Virus record (IMG/VR): IMGVR_UViG_3300031976_000422
Location: 1 to 28,531 of that record
Strand: one strand, 5' to 3'
Length of the DNA: 28,531 bases
Source: a virus
Positions 316-12,908 of the stretch are shown here, piece after piece. A model generated the notes under the pieces. The model was not told the DNA's origin. It saw only the letters and a program-made list of their open reading frames with translations, and made no database searches. Each line of letters begins with the position of its first letter. Positions within the stretch are counted from its first letter, which is position 1. Made by a program: the position numbers and the translations under genes.

Positions 316-1227
316 TTAACCTTCTTCTGCAAGTTTTTCAAAATATGACATGGTGTCATCATCGTCTTCAGTATTACTCATTGATACTGTAGGAGCAGGC
401 TCCTCTTTCGTATCCACTACAGTTGCTGTAGAGGGTGAGTCATCAAATGCACTACCAGTTTGCATATCTGTTACATTACCAACTTTGGTAGTGCCTGACA
501 GAACTGTATTCAAACGAGTCTGCAATTCATCATAGGACTTGAAGTTAGTAGGAGCAGTAAACTCTGAAAGAGAATATTGTTTTCCCCAAATCTCTTCTAA
601 CTTCTCATCATCCTCAGCAAGAGCAGATGGTTTTTCAAACTCTGACTTGTCATAGTTCCAGTAACCATCTACCTTACGTAGTTTCAACTTGAAGTTTGCA
701 CCTTCCCAGAAATCAAATGGATTTACTGGAGTCTCATCTTCAAATGCAGGCTGCATTGTCTCCATGACCTTATCAAAGATTTTCTTACCATAGCGATAAA
801 GGAATACTTTACCTTCATTCTCTGGATTGGCACTATCTTTGACAACGTAGATGTTGGAGTAGTACTGCAACTTACGCTTCTGTCTACGTGCGATCTCTTT
901 ATCAGACTCTACACCAGAGTTCCAAAACTTGGAGTTTAATTCTGACACTGGATCATTTTGACTAATGGTAGTAAGAGAGTTCTCAATATACCATTGACCA
1001 GTTGGGCCTTGAAACGCATGGTTCCAAAGTTTTACCCAAGGAAGTTCTTCGTCCTTTGGTGCTGGAAGAAAACGAATGATAGCAAAACCATTACCAGTTT
1101 TGTCCATGACAGGTTTCCAGATACGTTCATCCACGTATGACTTCTTTTCTAGGGGTTTGTTTTCTTGTACTGCTGCACCGAGCAGTTTGTCCAACGAATT
1201 GGACTTCTTCATTGCGCTTAACGACAT
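316..1227 (-). CDS. 32: gp32 single-stranded DNA-binding protein
   Basis: This is the T4 gp32 homologue. It coats single-stranded DNA at the fork and coordinates polymerase, helicase loader and recombination proteins. The OB-fold core is clear: WNHAFQGPTGQWYIEN (near residues 68-83), VVKDSANPENEGKVFLYRYGKKIFDK, and FWEGANFKLKLRKVDGYWNYD. The tail is acidic (EDDDDTMSYFEKLAEE), as in the protein-interaction domain of the family. Length 303 aa is close to T4 (301). The T4 zinc ligands (one His, three Cys) are not kept; the whole protein has no cysteine. Start is set by AAGGAG six bases upstream of ATG. Its leader carries repeats and a sigma70-like promoter, listed separately. Confidence 0.96.
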   Translation of the reverse strand: MSLSAMKKSNSLDKLLGAAVQENKPLEKKSYVDERIWKPVMDKTGNGFAIIRFLPAPKDEELPWVKLWNHAFQGPTGQWYIENSLTTISQNDPVSELNSKFWNSGVESDKEIARRQKRKLQYYSNIYVVKDSANPENEGKVFLYRYGKKIFDKVMETMQPAFEDETPVNPFDFWEGANFKLKLRKVDGYWNYDKSEFEKPSALAEDDEKLEEIWGKQYSLSEFTAPTNFKSYDELQTRLNTVLSGTTKVGNVTDMQTGSAFDDSPSTATVVDTKEEPAPTVSMSNTEDDDDTMSYFEKLAEEG

Positions 1228-2992: not shown

Positions 2993-3226
2993 TTATCCTC
3001 GCTTTTTGAAGCGGTCATGTCTACGAGGAGAATACCCCTTAGGCCATGCTGGTTGTCGTGATGCAAGTTTAGTAACTCGCTGACCTAACTCATCGTTTTT
3101 AACGACAAGTTGAGCATTGTCAAATTGCAATGCCTTGATTTGGTTCTCAAGAGTAACAACTTTACCCTCAAAAAACCCTTCTTCTCTTACGGCAGGATTA
3201 CCGTCAAGATGTACAGTGATTTCCAT
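2993..3226 (-). CDS. Coiled-coil protein with basic tail, 77 aa
   Basis: Residues about 22-55 form a likely coiled coil (KVVTLENQIKALQFDNAQLV...). They are followed by a Pro/Arg/Lys-rich tail (YSPRRHDRFKKRG) that could bind nucleic acid. The ATG shares a base with the gp59 stop (TAATG), so it is translated with gp59. The family is not recognised. Confidence 0.75.
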   Translation of the reverse strand: MEITVHLDGNPAVREEGFFEGKVVTLENQIKALQFDNAQLVVKNDELGQRVTKLASRQPAWPKGYSPRRHDRFKKRG

Positions 3227-3804
3227 TAACTGGACTCCTCTATAAGTTTCAATAATTTCATTCTATACCTTTCGGCATCAATTGTCAAGAACCCTTTGTA
3301 ATTTTTCATAAGTTTTTTTACATCAGGCCACACAAAATCATCCCATACTAACTCCTTATCCCATTTATTACTAAATTCAACAAGTTCATCCAATATAATC
3401 ATAGTCTCAATGGAGACTCTTTTACCCAAATATTCTTTTAACAATGTAGGATGGTTATCATTTTTACACTCAAAAAGAGGTTCAAAGTTCTTGACAAACG
3501 GCTGCAACTCTTGAGAGAAGAGTTCATAGAACATCTTTCTTCGTTGCATCCATTCTTCATAATTTTTGGTGTTAAAGTTTGCAATGTATCCGTCACGTTC
3601 TTTAATAAAGTTTGATACAAAATAATTGAGGACTTCTTTATCATCATACCTAGTAGCAGTTTTGACAAAGAAAATGCGGTCTTTCCGTTTCCAGAATGAA
3701 TCTCTAGAAACTTTTGTTTTACCACTAAATCTGTGGTAATCATAATCACCTTTGAAGTGAGCTTTCAAGGCACAATACATTAGATAGGTATCAACTGCTT
3801 GCAT
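3226..3804 (-). CDS. 59: gp59 replicative helicase loader
   Basis: Homologue of T4 gp59, which loads the gp41 helicase onto gp32-coated DNA at forks and recombination intermediates. The T4-like blocks are TYLMYCALKAHFKGDYDYHRF, the basic SRDSFWKRKDRIFFVK, and the C-terminal LVWDDFVWPDVKKLMKNYKGFLTIDAERY. At 192 aa it is a little shorter than T4 (217). There is no clear ribosome binding site before this ATG, but the N-terminus aligns with the T4 protein from here. It lies near gp33 and gp32, as in T4. Confidence 0.88.
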   Translation of the reverse strand: MQAVDTYLMYCALKAHFKGDYDYHRFSGKTKVSRDSFWKRKDRIFFVKTATRYDDKEVLNYFVSNFIKERDGYIANFNTKNYEEWMQRRKMFYELFSQELQPFVKNFEPLFECKNDNHPTLLKEYLGKRVSIETMIILDELVEFSNKWDKELVWDDFVWPDVKKLMKNYKGFLTIDAERYRMKLLKLIEESS

Positions 3805-4027: not shown

Positions 4028-4243
4028 TTATACTGGTAGTTGTGCGTGTCTAGGAAGGAAATTCAAATCTCTTGCATTTGCTTCAATCTTTTGTTTAAGT
4101 GCTTTAGATATCAAATTACCTACTGTGTCTGGTTCGATACCTTCATTCTTACAATACCAAAGTACTGCTTCCATGTGTGTAATTCTTTTTTCTTGTGCGA
4201 TACTCTCTATTTTAAGAGAGAATGTTTTAGTTGTATTCATCAT
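4028..4243 (-). CDS. 33: gp33 late-transcription co-activator
   Basis: T4 gp33 bridges RNA polymerase and the sliding clamp so that the gp55 sigma can use late promoters. This 71-aa protein matches the conserved core of T4 gp33: MEAVLWYCKNEGIEPDTVGNLISKALKQKIEANARDLNFLP against the T4 segment around SYLEATTAFLEENSIPETQFAKFI. The N-terminal extension of T4 gp33 is missing, as in other marine relatives. The start overlaps the iscU stop (TAATG). The position just upstream of gp59 and gp32 supports the call, and exact TATAAATA motifs in the window fit a working late system. Confidence 0.82.
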   Translation of the reverse strand: MMNTTKTFSLKIESIAQEKRITHMEAVLWYCKNEGIEPDTVGNLISKALKQKIEANARDLNFLPRHAQLPV

Positions 4244-4641
4244 TAGTCCTGTTTGTTCAATTCACTTCTTTTAGTTTTATAGTCAGCGACTGCGGCCTTA
4301 ATTGCATCTTCAGCGAGAACTGAGCAATGAATCTTAACAGGCGGTAGTGCTAATTCTTTTGCAATATCTTTGTTTGTTATAACCGTTGCTTCGTCTAATG
4401 TCTTACCCTTGATCCATTCAGTTACAAGGGAACTTGAGGCTATTGCAGAACCACAACCAAAAGTTTTAAAACAAGCATCTTTTATGATACTGTCCTCATC
4501 AACCCTAATTTGTAATTTCATAACATCACCGCAAGCAGGCGCACCAACTAGGCCAGTACCTACGTTATCTTCATTCTTATCTAAAGACCCAACATTACGT
4601 GGATTTTCATAGTGATCTAATAACTTGTTACTATATGCCAT
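4243..4641 (-). CDS. iscU: IscU-type Fe-S cluster assembly scaffold
   Basis: A full-length IscU (132 aa, host proteins about 128). On IscU the cysteine desulfurase IscS and an iron donor build [2Fe-2S] clusters, which are then passed on with HscA/HscB. All cluster ligands are present at the positions of E. coli IscU: Cys37 and Asp39 (PACGDV), Cys63 (FGCGSA), His105 and Cys106 (IHCSVLAED). The HscA recognition motif LPPVK is at 99-103. It is therefore likely to be active with host partners, not a relic. It shares bases with the gp33 start. No IscS, HscA or ferredoxin gene is seen in the window. Confidence 0.95.
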   Translation of the reverse strand: MAYSNKLLDHYENPRNVGSLDKNEDNVGTGLVGAPACGDVMKLQIRVDEDSIIKDACFKTFGCGSAIASSSLVTEWIKGKTLDEATVITNKDIAKELALPPVKIHCSVLAEDAIKAAVADYKTKRSELNKQD

Positions 4642-4712: not shown

Positions 4713-4970
4713 TTACGCTGTGCGTAGTGCTGCATAACCAGCAGCAACAACTGCTCGTGTTGGTGTACCAATCATATACTTCATATATGTTTCACCATCA
4801 AAAGATGATACACGCTTGTTCAAATAGATTGAAAATCCTTCTGAACGAAGTTTGCTAATAACTGCACGAACATTCTTAACACCATAACGTGCTGAAATCT
4901 GTTTAGCGGTTAGTTCTGCACCATTCTCTAGTGCAGCTGCGACCTTTGCGGTCTGTGTAGTAGTAGTCAT
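4713..4970 (-). CDS. Small winged-helix/HTH DNA-binding protein, 85 aa
   Basis: The protein reads like a single helix-turn-helix domain. LTAKQISARYGVKNVRAVISKLRSEGFSIYL (residues about 20-50) gives helix, turn, recognition helix and wing. It ends in a short alanine-rich helix (TRAVVAAGYAALRTA). Such proteins are frequent in marine T4-like phages and are presumed regulators; targets are unknown. It lies directly downstream of the tmRNA, in the position T4 uses for dsbA, but I see no sequence similarity to DsbA. AAGGA precedes the start. Confidence 0.8.
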   Translation of the reverse strand: MTTTTQTAKVAAALENGAELTAKQISARYGVKNVRAVISKLRSEGFSIYLNKRVSSFDGETYMKYMIGTPTRAVVAAGYAALRTA

Positions 4971-5024
4971 TTAAATGTTTTCCTTAACATTACAAATAAG
5001 CTGGAAACATTCCAACTTTTAAAG

Positions 5025-5058
5025 TGGTAGTTTTTAGTCCTATAAAAGAGAACTACCA
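5025..5058 (-). other. Hairpin downstream of tmRNA
   Basis: TGGTAGTT (5058-5051) and AACTACCA (5032-5025) form an 8-bp stem with an 18-nt loop on the minus strand. It follows the tmRNA 3' region and precedes the HTH gene. It may end the tmRNA transcript or protect its 3' end, but no T-run follows. Confidence 0.45.
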
Positions 5059-5064
5059 AACTCA

Positions 5065-5477
5065 TTAAGTGTCGATATAGCAATAGGTTGCCGTCACTTA
5101 AATTAAGTGGGGATGTTTCTGTTGCTAAGTACATCCCCGAAACTCCATGAGATTATGCAGCTAGTGCAAAATCTTCAATTTGCAAATTATCGTTTGCGTT
5201 TAGTGTTTTGACCATTAACGGAGTCATCCGACAATTCTCCACTTCTCTAATCAACACCTGTCGATCCTAGTTCGCCCCCATCAAAAGTAGACCAGCTTCC
5301 GAAAATATCAATGCACTTCAATCTTCTACTGAATTTAATCGTCCCAAATCTATTGACTAAGGAGCTACCTTAAATCTCATTTAGCTGACGCTCAGATTTG
5401 CTAGTCTACTTATGGTGGAGGCGTTGGGTACTGCCCCCAAGTCCAATCTGCCTTTCAATCTGCTTCATCGAACTGTA
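5065..5477 (-). ncRNA. ssrA: Circularly permuted (two-piece) tmRNA
   Basis: tmRNA rescues stalled ribosomes by acting as tRNA-Ala and then as a message for a degradation tag. Here the gene order is permuted. The 3' acceptor part comes first, with T-arm TTGGG/CCCAA and then CGCCTCC-A-CCA ending at 5413. A spacer follows (5412-5280). Next comes the 5' part, starting GGGGGCG at 5279 with GAACTAGGATCGACAGG (D-arm region), then a tag frame. GGGGGCG pairs with CGCCTCC over 7 bp and keeps the G3:U70 alanine identity pair. The spacer ends AAGTAGACTAGC and GCTGGTCTACTT pair over 12 bp, extending the acceptor stem as in precursors cut into two pieces. After the tag are a stem GGGGATGT/ACATCCCC and a further long hairpin (5101-5065). 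Outer ends are estimates. No smpB is seen, so host SmpB is presumably used. Confidence 0.93.
5153..5197 (-). other. tmRNA tag reading frame (ANDNLQIEDFALAA)
   Basis: The resume codon GCA at 5197 opens 14 codons encoding ANDNLQIEDFALAA, then TAA. The ANDN start resembles alphaproteobacterial tags. The ALAA end is the usual ClpXP degradation signal. The frame lies 82 nt after the mature 5' end, where a tag is expected. Confidence 0.93.
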
Positions 5478-5481
5478 ACTA

Positions 5482-5512
5482 TATTTATACCACATCTAAT
5501 TTAAAAAGTCAA
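5482..5512 (-). promoter_or_regulatory. tmRNA promoter: overlapping sigma70 and T4-late motifs
   Basis: TTGACT at 5512-5507 is followed after 17 nt by TATAAA at 5489-5484. The same bases extend to an exact T4 late motif TATAAATA at 5489-5482. The tmRNA could thus be made early by host sigma70 and late by the phage-modified polymerase. The predicted start is near 5477. Confidence 0.75.
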
Positions 5513-5520
5513 GTGCTTTT

Positions 5521-5949
5521 TTATAAAGATGTTCCTTTTGTCGTATTTTTAAAGTTTCCAACACCTACTAATAATATACATAAAAGTCTTTCTTCTAATG
5601 GCATCTGTTCAAACACTGTAAAGCTTCCAGTTTCATTATTATATGTAATTGTTACCATTGGAATAATATGATCACCTGTAGTTGGATGTAAAGCTTTACT
5701 CTGTCCTAAAAATACTGGCCTCTCACCAAATTTAGTATACATATTGTTTAGAATAGCATCTGCTCTTCCACACACAACAGGTTTACTACTATTAACAAGT
5801 TGGCCAGACTCTATTGGTTTGTCCTTAAAAGGGTTTACTATTGAGATTTTTTTATTGATAGTTTCTAGCTTTGTTTCTGTATCAGACGATTGAGTTGTTT
5901 GACAACCCACTATCAGAAACATCGCCATCAACAAGGATAGGTGTTTCAT
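5521..5949 (-). CDS. Lipoprotein, 142 aa
   Basis: The N-terminus MKHLSLLMAMFLIVGCQT is a lipoprotein signal with lipobox (IVGC). The mature part has two more cysteines (VVCGRAD and LLCILL) and no family that I recognise. I start at the MKH methionine; three more codons are open upstream. Its first 68 nt overlap the end of the PD-(D/E)XK gene in another frame. It ends just before the tmRNA promoter. Confidence 0.72.
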   Translation of the reverse strand: MKHLSLLMAMFLIVGCQTTQSSDTETKLETINKKISIVNPFKDKPIESGQLVNSSKPVVCGRADAILNNMYTKFGERPVFLGQSKALHPTTGDHIIPMVTITYNNETGSFTVFEQMPLEERLLCILLVGVGNFKNTTKGTSL

Positions 5950-6625
5950 TCTGCACACTCCATTCGGTAACTGTTTCCTCTAACATAGGAAGATACTTGT
6001 CTTTGTTCTTTATAAATTCTTGAACAGTGCCATCCTCAGTTACCACAAGAATGACTACTTGATTTATTTCAATTCCTGTTCTTTCACCAAACATTTCTGC
6101 ATACGCTGAACCTTGTATGTAGTAGTTTTCATTCCAAGCCTCAGTTCGTTCTTTAGTAGACGTTTTGAAATCAATAATAGATGAAACACCTTTGTACTCT
6201 GCAATACAATCAACTCGGCCTGCAACCTTATATTTATCACTATAGAGTCCTGCTTCTTGTGCATAGATGTTATCTATATTACACAATACTCCTCTTCTTA
6301 GTCTTTTGAATAAACACCAAGGAAGAAAATTCTTTGCGTGTTCTGCAAACTTTTCTGGAGATTCATTGTGCATATTATTAAGGTAGTCTTCACACATATG
6401 GTGAACCTTCGTACCTCTTGCAGCGGCAGTTCTTGCGATATGGTTTGCAACTTGTTCACCGACACGTTTACGCCACTCAAACAATCCTTGTTTATTACGG
6501 ACTGATAGAACAGTAGTTATAGAAGGATACTTATTTCCTTCTGGCGTTACATAAAATCTTTTACGATTTATCGTTTCTGTTGTAAGTTCTTGTAGTTTCA
6601 CTGGTATGTGATTGTAGTTCATCAT
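5882..6625 (-). CDS. PD-(D/E)XK exonuclease (Cas4/RecB-like)
   Basis: A 247-aa nuclease with the full PD-(D/E)XK core: His76 (KVHHMCED), Asp139 (VAGRVDCIAEYKG), Asp152-Phe-Lys154 (SIIDFKTSTK), and the downstream helix YYIQGSAYAEMF that carries the family Gln and Tyr. Similar proteins in marine T4-like phages are annotated as exonucleases and probably act in recombination or host DNA breakdown. The N-terminal RKRFYVTPEGNKYPSITTVLS is a usual start of this family and supports the chosen ATG. Confidence 0.87.
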   Translation of the reverse strand: MMNYNHIPVKLQELTTETINRKRFYVTPEGNKYPSITTVLSVRNKQGLFEWRKRVGEQVANHIARTAAARGTKVHHMCEDYLNNMHNESPEKFAEHAKNFLPWCLFKRLRRGVLCNIDNIYAQEAGLYSDKYKVAGRVDCIAEYKGVSSIIDFKTSTKERTEAWNENYYIQGSAYAEMFGERTGIEINQVVILVVTEDGTVQEFIKNKDKYLPMLEETVTEWSVQNETPILVDGDVSDSGLSNNSIV

Positions 6626-12044: not shown

Positions 12045-12908
12045 TCAAAATTCTCCTATGGATTCTATGAGATTCTTCAATCTCTTCTTTGTAAAATAAT
12101 TTAGTAGTTTGCTACGATCACCTTCTGGAGATTCTTGATATGCTTTCAAACAAGACATAAAAATTTCTTCTGGTGCTTTAGACAAATCTATCAACTGTTG
12201 ATTTCTTTGAAAATTACGTTTCACTTCACCATCTGGTATAGCCATCTCTACAGGCATTAGAATTTCACCTGTCCATTCTGCAATCTTCTTTTTACTCAAA
12301 GGTTTTTGTCGTATTCCATCAACAAATGTATTGTCTGGTGATAATACATTTGGAACTCCATCACTTGTATCACCTTTGAGAATGTGTTCATCCAAATATT
12401 TGTAGGGATCATGGCCGTTAATCATTTTTTTAGTGATAGGACTGTATTGAGATACATTACTAAATCTATGTAACTGAATAAAGTCTTTGTCTCCAGAAAG
12501 AATTAATGTCTTTCCATTGTCGTATTCAAGTTCAAGGCACAATGCAGCGATTACATCATCTGCCTCTGCACCATATACCTCAACGTGTTTGTATGGGAAA
12601 ACATCTTTTAGTTCTTGTTTAATCTCATTGAGACAACCAAATATTGCATCCCAATCTAGATTAGAACTTTCTCTACTCTTTTTACGACTAGCCTTGTAGT
12701 TTGGAAAGTGATCACGCCTCCAGTAGTGACGAGAATCAAAACAGAGAACTAACTCTCCAAACTCTTGTTTAAATTTACTACGATACATTCTTAGAGAATT
12801 AAGTATCATGTGACGTACCATACTCTCATCTGGTTTGGTAGTCTTATTCATATTCAGATGCATCATCATACTGGCTAATGATATCTGACTTATATCAACT
12901 AAAATCAT
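12045..12908 (-). CDS. rnh: RNase H / 5'-3' exonuclease (T4 rnh-like)
   Basis: T4 RNase H removes RNA primers from lagging-strand fragments and belongs to the FEN1/5'-nuclease family. The metal-binding acids are all visible: Asp5 (LVDISQ), Asp58 (CFDSRHYWRRDHFPNYKASR), Glu115, Asp117 and Asp118 (YGAEADDVIAA), Asp140 and Asp142 (LSGDKDFIQL), Asp180 and Asp183 (KGDTSDGVPN). Length 287 aa is near T4 (305). It overlaps its upstream neighbour by 4 nt (ATGA). Confidence 0.93.
   Translation of the reverse strand: MILVDISQISLASMMMHLNMNKTTKPDESMVRHMILNSLRMYRSKFKQEFGELVLCFDSRHYWRRDHFPNYKASRKKSRESSNLDWDAIFGCLNEIKQELKDVFPYKHVEVYGAEADDVIAALCLELEYDNGKTLILSGDKDFIQLHRFSNVSQYSPITKKMINGHDPYKYLDEHILKGDTSDGVPNVLSPDNTFVDGIRQKPLSKKKIAEWTGEILMPVEMAIPDGEVKRNFQRNQQLIDLSKAPEEIFMSCLKAYQESPEGDRSKLLNYFTKKRLKNLIESIGEF

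Follow-up and report, generated by a model that had tools for sequence, protein, structure and literature searches.

The window, as the whole 28,531-nt stretch analysed here is called, is a 28.5-kb IMG/VR contig of a T4-like marine phage, and its complementary strand carries a complete circularly permuted two-piece tmRNA gene at 5476-5106, as found with Rfam covariance models. The tmRNA is real and very probably functional, judging by its anatomy and by its conservation in related phages. With a probability of roughly 0.8, it is a functional phage tmRNA of the alphaproteobacterial type that is transcribed from a composite early/late promoter, uses the SmpB protein of the host and acts in ribosome rescue. 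A two-piece tmRNA in a phage is an already known kind, described in 2022. The composite promoter, and a leader RNA found directly downstream of the gene, add to the published picture. The features of the window are listed in Table 1.

Table 1. Coordinates of the tmRNA gene, its promoter, the downstream leader RNA and neighbouring genes in the window.
Feature	Positions	Strand	Remarks
gp32	316-1227		
gp59 helicase loader	3226-3804	-	conserved downstream neighbour of the tmRNA
gp33-type late-transcription coactivator	4028-4243	-	PF16805, E 1.3e-17; phrog_254
IscU/NifU_N protein	4243-4641	-	directly before gp33
Small winged-helix protein HTH_39	4713-4970	-	PHROG 4973; after the leader RNA
Leader RNA, separate, conserved and structured	4971-5104	-	134 nt; just before the HTH_39 gene
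tmRNA, coding piece	5106-5279	-	5' tRNA half, tag frame, 3' terminal hairpin
Tag frame with TAA stop	5153-5197	-	tag ANDNLQIEDFALAA
tmRNA, intervening segment	5280-5412	-	133 nt, ends paired over 12 bp; probably removed in processing
tmRNA, acceptor piece	5413-5476	-	3' tRNA half, T arm, acceptor 3' strand, CCA end at 5413
TATAAATA, T4-type late box doubling as sigma70 -10	5482-5489	-	predicted start about 5476-5477
-35-like hexamer TTGACT	5507-5512	-	17 nt upstream of the -10/late box
PD-(D/E)XK exonuclease	5882-6625	-	conserved upstream neighbour of the tmRNA

Anatomy and surroundings of the tmRNA gene

Two Rfam models matched over their full lengths and above their gathering cut-offs, namely RF01849 (alpha_tmRNA) at 5516-5106 (115.5 bits against a cut-off of 50, E 3.7e-31, model positions 1-355 of 355) and RF04321 (tmRNA_permuted) at 5476-5153 (108.8 bits against a cut-off of 47, E 1.2e-20, model positions 1-213 of 213), both on the complementary strand. 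This search had been proposed as a check in the original prediction, made from the sequence alone, and together with the T4-like neighbours it bears out the claim of a permuted two-piece tmRNA carried by a phage. ARAGORN did not find the tmRNA at 5476-5106.

The gene order is permuted, such that the acceptor half, with the terminal CCTCCACCA, precedes the spacer (5412-5280) and the 5' half that begins at 5279. The acceptor stem of 7 bp (GGGGGCG/CGCCUCC) includes G3:U70, the alanine identity pair, and is followed by the CCA end. In the folded spacer (z -2.8 compared with shuffled sequences), the two ends form a 12-bp helix. Each of these elements had been predicted, including both ends, the spacer length and the pairing, and all were confirmed, as was the tag ANDNLQIEDFALAA with its LAA ending, read at 5197-5156 before the TAA stop at 5155-5153. 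The predicted span of 5065-5477 holds for the tmRNA itself but not for its lower limit, as the model ends at 5106 and the separate leader RNA at 5104-4971 follows. Spacers range from 10 to 260 nt in the phage tmRNAs compared with 7-58 nt in the alphaproteobacterial genes examined, and spacers of 18, 32, 62, 159 and 177 nt recur (phage loci L035, L053, L114, L182 and others).

Profile and PHROG matches identified the surroundings of the tmRNA gene as T4-like, and the neighbours also include a primase-like protein. The IscU/NifU_N protein is 71-81% identical to bacterial IscU proteins and is absent from several relatives; it was uninformative for assigning a host, since its top matches are scattered over alpha-, beta- and gammaproteobacteria. 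No SmpB was found in the window fragment, the complete genome of phage Melnitz or 12 related contigs. Hence, host SmpB is presumably used, and its use, suggested in the original prediction, is supported as the most likely arrangement.

Conservation among related phages

Relatives were fetched by similarity to the gp59 and PDDEXK genes of the phage itself. A simple structural test detected a permuted tmRNA in 87 of 90 distinct intervals between PDDEXK and gp33/gp59, a count of non-independent events given that the relatives were chosen via the phage's own genes; two of the remaining three intervals contain the conserved 5'-piece motif. This frequency suggests that earlier counts based on ARAGORN, e.g. 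17 of 47 contigs, may be underestimates, because ARAGORN misses the copy in the window.

The acceptor stem is fully paired in 96 distinct phage copies and occurs in five variants related by compensatory changes, among them GGGGGCG/CGCCUCC, GGGGGUG/CACCUCC and GGGCGGG/CCCGUCC. Full pairing was a requirement of the search, and the informative observations are the variants and position 3:70, where all 96 copies have G:U though G:C and other standard pairs were also permitted. The tags, read at 100 loci, are highly diverse, yet nearly every one ends in ALAA or a similar LAA-type sequence, and almost all of the relatives retain an open tag frame. As read from these sequences, the conservation, the compensatory changes and the tag endings are the pattern of selection for tmRNA function. 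The window differs from one relative (L004) at 25 positions over about 590 nt, mostly within roughly 100 nt (5205-5104) that hold the tag and the 3' end of the tmRNA, as might result from recombinational exchange of a tag cassette.

In a tree of 64 tmRNAs, 36 phage copies lie on one side of a branch with 99/100 support, apart from 27 bacterial ones, and in this tree the phage tmRNAs constitute a separate lineage. The tmRNA of Pelagibacter phage HTVC008M grouped with the bacterial sequences on a long branch. A direct DNA search of 385 alphaproteobacterial genomes returned mostly short conserved stretches and no close tmRNA donor. The ANDN start of the tag had been taken as a hint of an alphaproteobacterial host. 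This did not hold up, as ANDN is the common start in the phage lineage and Melnitz, which has the same tag type, infects a member of the Methylophilales (gammaproteobacterial); the tag therefore does not reveal the host of the window phage. The separation of the phage tmRNAs from the 27 alphaproteobacterial ones further weakens the hint.

Promoter of the tmRNA gene

At the usual spacing between a T4 late box and the transcription start, the predicted +1 of the tmRNA lies at about 5476, where the RF04321 match begins. An exact TATAAATA at -73 to -68 from CCACCA occurs in 82 of the 94 phage tmRNAs whose upstream sequence is long enough, compared with none of 27 alphaproteobacterial genes; these 82 come from relatives selected by the phage's own genes and, like the intervals above, do not count as independent. 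When tmRNAs were sampled more widely by their own sequence only, 37 of 72 had the late box. TTGAC is located at exactly 17 nt in 66 of the 71 distinct relatives that have the box, and within 5 nt of that spacing in 70. A plain T4 late promoter has no -35 element; because the -35 is conserved here, the promoter is called composite, and an assignment of the tmRNA as a plain late gene was modified once the conserved TTGAC was seen.

Both halves of this arrangement have counterparts in Melnitz. There, TATAAATA precedes the genes for the major capsid, tail sheath, prohead core, baseplate and tail-fibre proteins, mostly without TTGAC, and the word shows a modest enrichment in the genome (25 observed, 12.3 +/- 3.4 expected). 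Of the 41 Melnitz promoters of the TTGAC-(16-18)-TATA type, 39 keep the final T (position 6) of the -10 hexamer and the other two read TATAAATA, one of these being the tmRNA promoter. A second composite TTGACT-17-TATAAATA is present at 12133-12163 of Melnitz (L291), before the gene for a 361-aa protein. The late box is absent from the HTVC008M tmRNA. Of the genes for the late machinery, gp33 is present in the 28.5-kb window fragment, Melnitz encodes gp55, gp33 and the clamp, and gp55 and the clamp are also annotated in HTVC008M.

Thus, the tmRNA promoter is best read as a composite TTGAC-17 nt-TATAAATA element that is likely to direct both early and late transcription. The -35 and TATAAA could also constitute a pure sigma70 promoter with an incidental TA tail. 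Buchholz et al. 2022 (PMC9004378) placed the Melnitz tmRNA under an early promoter, and their Methods state that promoters neither intergenic nor near the end of an ORF were discarded. The annotated Melnitz tmRNA (45984-46436) contains the late box, at 46000, and the box may have been missed in the published analysis because the annotation covers it. The composite promoter is new information and revises the published reading of early-only timing.

A leader RNA downstream of the tmRNA gene

The leader RNA is predicted to fold into P1/P2, P3, P4 and a hairpin around the Shine-Dalgarno site (z -2.4). Its core was found in 67 IMG/VR stretches. Relatives that are mostly 70-80% identical in gp33 and gp59 retain 94-100% identity across P1-P3. 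Pairing is preserved through double changes at 4 of the 33 predicted pairs; examples are P2, where G-C replaces C-G in 9 of 23 sequences, and P4, where it replaces A-U in 7 of 23. This covariation is modest evidence from a shallow family, given that the covariance model of the leader is nearly all-or-none across related loci. Where the gene behind the leader is readable, it is HTH_39 in most of 33 distinct instances and gp33 itself in four.

No Rfam family matched the leader above its gathering cut-off, the best being RAGATH-23 (E 0.076, 19.9 bits compared with 92.6 required). A glutamine riboswitch, as published for Melnitz, gave no match even at E 10. The leader is not a part of the tmRNA, being separated from it by about 750 nt in one relative (L050) and missing from some relatives that have the tmRNA. 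Different cis-regulatory RNAs fill this one slot between tmRNA and gp33 across phages. It is occupied by the glutamine riboswitch RF01739, a structured cis-regulatory RNA, in Melnitz (L002:6404-6452), and by manA RNA (RF01745) in another phage (L026:1813-1987), where the RNA ends 18 nt before the gp33 start; the window leader matches neither.

The leader is the most novel part of the locus. Its position, structure and conservation tentatively suggest a cis-regulatory RNA of a new class, which may be a riboswitch and might control the HTH_39/gp33 late-transcription operon, though this assignment is somewhat doubtful. If it is right, the locus, with the leader and the composite tmRNA promoter together, would be a point at which metabolite sensing controls the late-transcription switch. 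The leader, an unclassified RNA of widespread ocean phages, is a concrete candidate for a new regulatory element.

Proposed function and alternatives

The course of events proposed here, from the timing of transcription through processing, charging and tagging to the benefit for the phage, is our reading of the sequences. Host sigma70 polymerase would transcribe the tmRNA early from the composite promoter (TTGACT, 17 nt, TATAAATA), and the T4-type late machinery of the phage (gp55/gp33/gp45) would continue its transcription late. Enzymes of tRNA processing would excise the 133-nt spacer and leave two pieces joined by base pairs. The acceptor with G3:U70 would be charged with alanine by host AlaRS, and host SmpB would bring the charged tmRNA to ribosomes stalled on broken (nonstop) mRNAs. 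The stalled protein would then receive the tag ANDNLQIEDFALAA, the LAA end of which would be read by host ClpXP. The phage would probably benefit from continued ribosome recycling at a time when host mRNA is being degraded and phage translation peaks. That phages carry rescue RNAs suggests that the cost of stalled ribosomes is high enough to justify a gene.

That the gene is an inert passenger, a host ssrA captured by chance, e.g. via a temperate relative integrating at ssrA, and without function in infection, is very unlikely. Integration at ssrA is common, and Buchholz et al. (PMC9004378) suggested that the gene was captured from a temperate phage, but the tmRNA is kept in 87 of the 90 non-independent intervals, its acceptor stem has undergone compensatory changes and G3:U70 is invariant. 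The phage copies further form one deep group with a phage-type promoter box that is absent from the bacterial ssrA genes examined. A relic of prophage integration is not favoured either, as the gene is complete and is surrounded by T4-like genes. Even more improbable is a decoy, which would inhibit rescue by competing for SmpB with the tmRNA of the host. Such a role has been proposed for mycobacteriophage DS6A, whose tmRNA has no tag, and in E. coli the endogenous tmRNA is inhibited by a tRNA-like domain of the DS6A type (cited in PMC4131195, PMC11915505). However, a decoy needs none of the resume codon, tag frame and stop that are complete in the window, nor a frame that is open in nearly all relatives.

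The alternative closest to the published view is an early-only gene, by which host proteins are tagged and degraded before phage proteins are made, as Buchholz et al. read it. It agrees with the good -35 conserved at 17 nt and with the early promoter that sigma70 prediction gave in Melnitz. It is nonetheless unlikely, as the -10 deviates from TATAAT and instead spells the late box in 82 of the 94 (non-independent) phage tmRNAs, whereas other early promoters of Melnitz keep the final T. Moreover, the published filter kept late boxes only if they were intergenic or close to the end of an ORF, and the Melnitz tmRNA annotation covers the box. Transcription of a functional tmRNA both early and late in infection is the reading preferred here.

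Comparison with known systems

Whether phage copies of this kind had been described was left open in the original prediction, and they have (PMC9004378; PMC11915505). Buchholz et al. 2022 reported a two-piece ssrA with the same neighbours in Melnitz, a phage of Methylophilales (OM43), and 133 unique tmRNA structures in 402 phages, 53 of them two-piece and 50 of these from marine or aquatic sources; descent of the phage tmRNA from the alphaproteobacterial (SAR11) side was suggested (PMC9004378). A tmRNA database of 2025 lists 79 unique phage tmRNA sequences of all forms (PMC11915505).

Alphaproteobacterial tmRNA (RF01849, Caulobacter type) shares with the window the permuted order, G3:U70 and a tag of the ANDN...LAA type, and differs in its shorter spacers (7-58 nt), the lack of a late box and its separate group in the tree. 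HTVC008M (KC465899) likewise has a permuted tmRNA downstream of a PDDEXK-type gene (145103-145414; L295), but this forms a long branch outside the main phage group, lacks the late box and encodes the tag ANFNEYALAA, which is also found in L377 and L379. The closest annotated phage tmRNA is that of Melnitz (MZ577097), at about 76% identity over 64% of the query and with the tag ANDNYVPVDYALAA. As in the window, a permuted alpha-type tmRNA with an ANDN...ALAA tag and a TTGAC-17-TATAAATA promoter lies between the PDDEXK nuclease and gp33/gp59, and the gene order PhoH - PDDEXK - tmRNA - gp33 - gp59 - ThyX - gp32 is shared. The Melnitz tmRNA is followed by the glutamine riboswitch, whereas that of the window is followed by the unclassified leader RNA.
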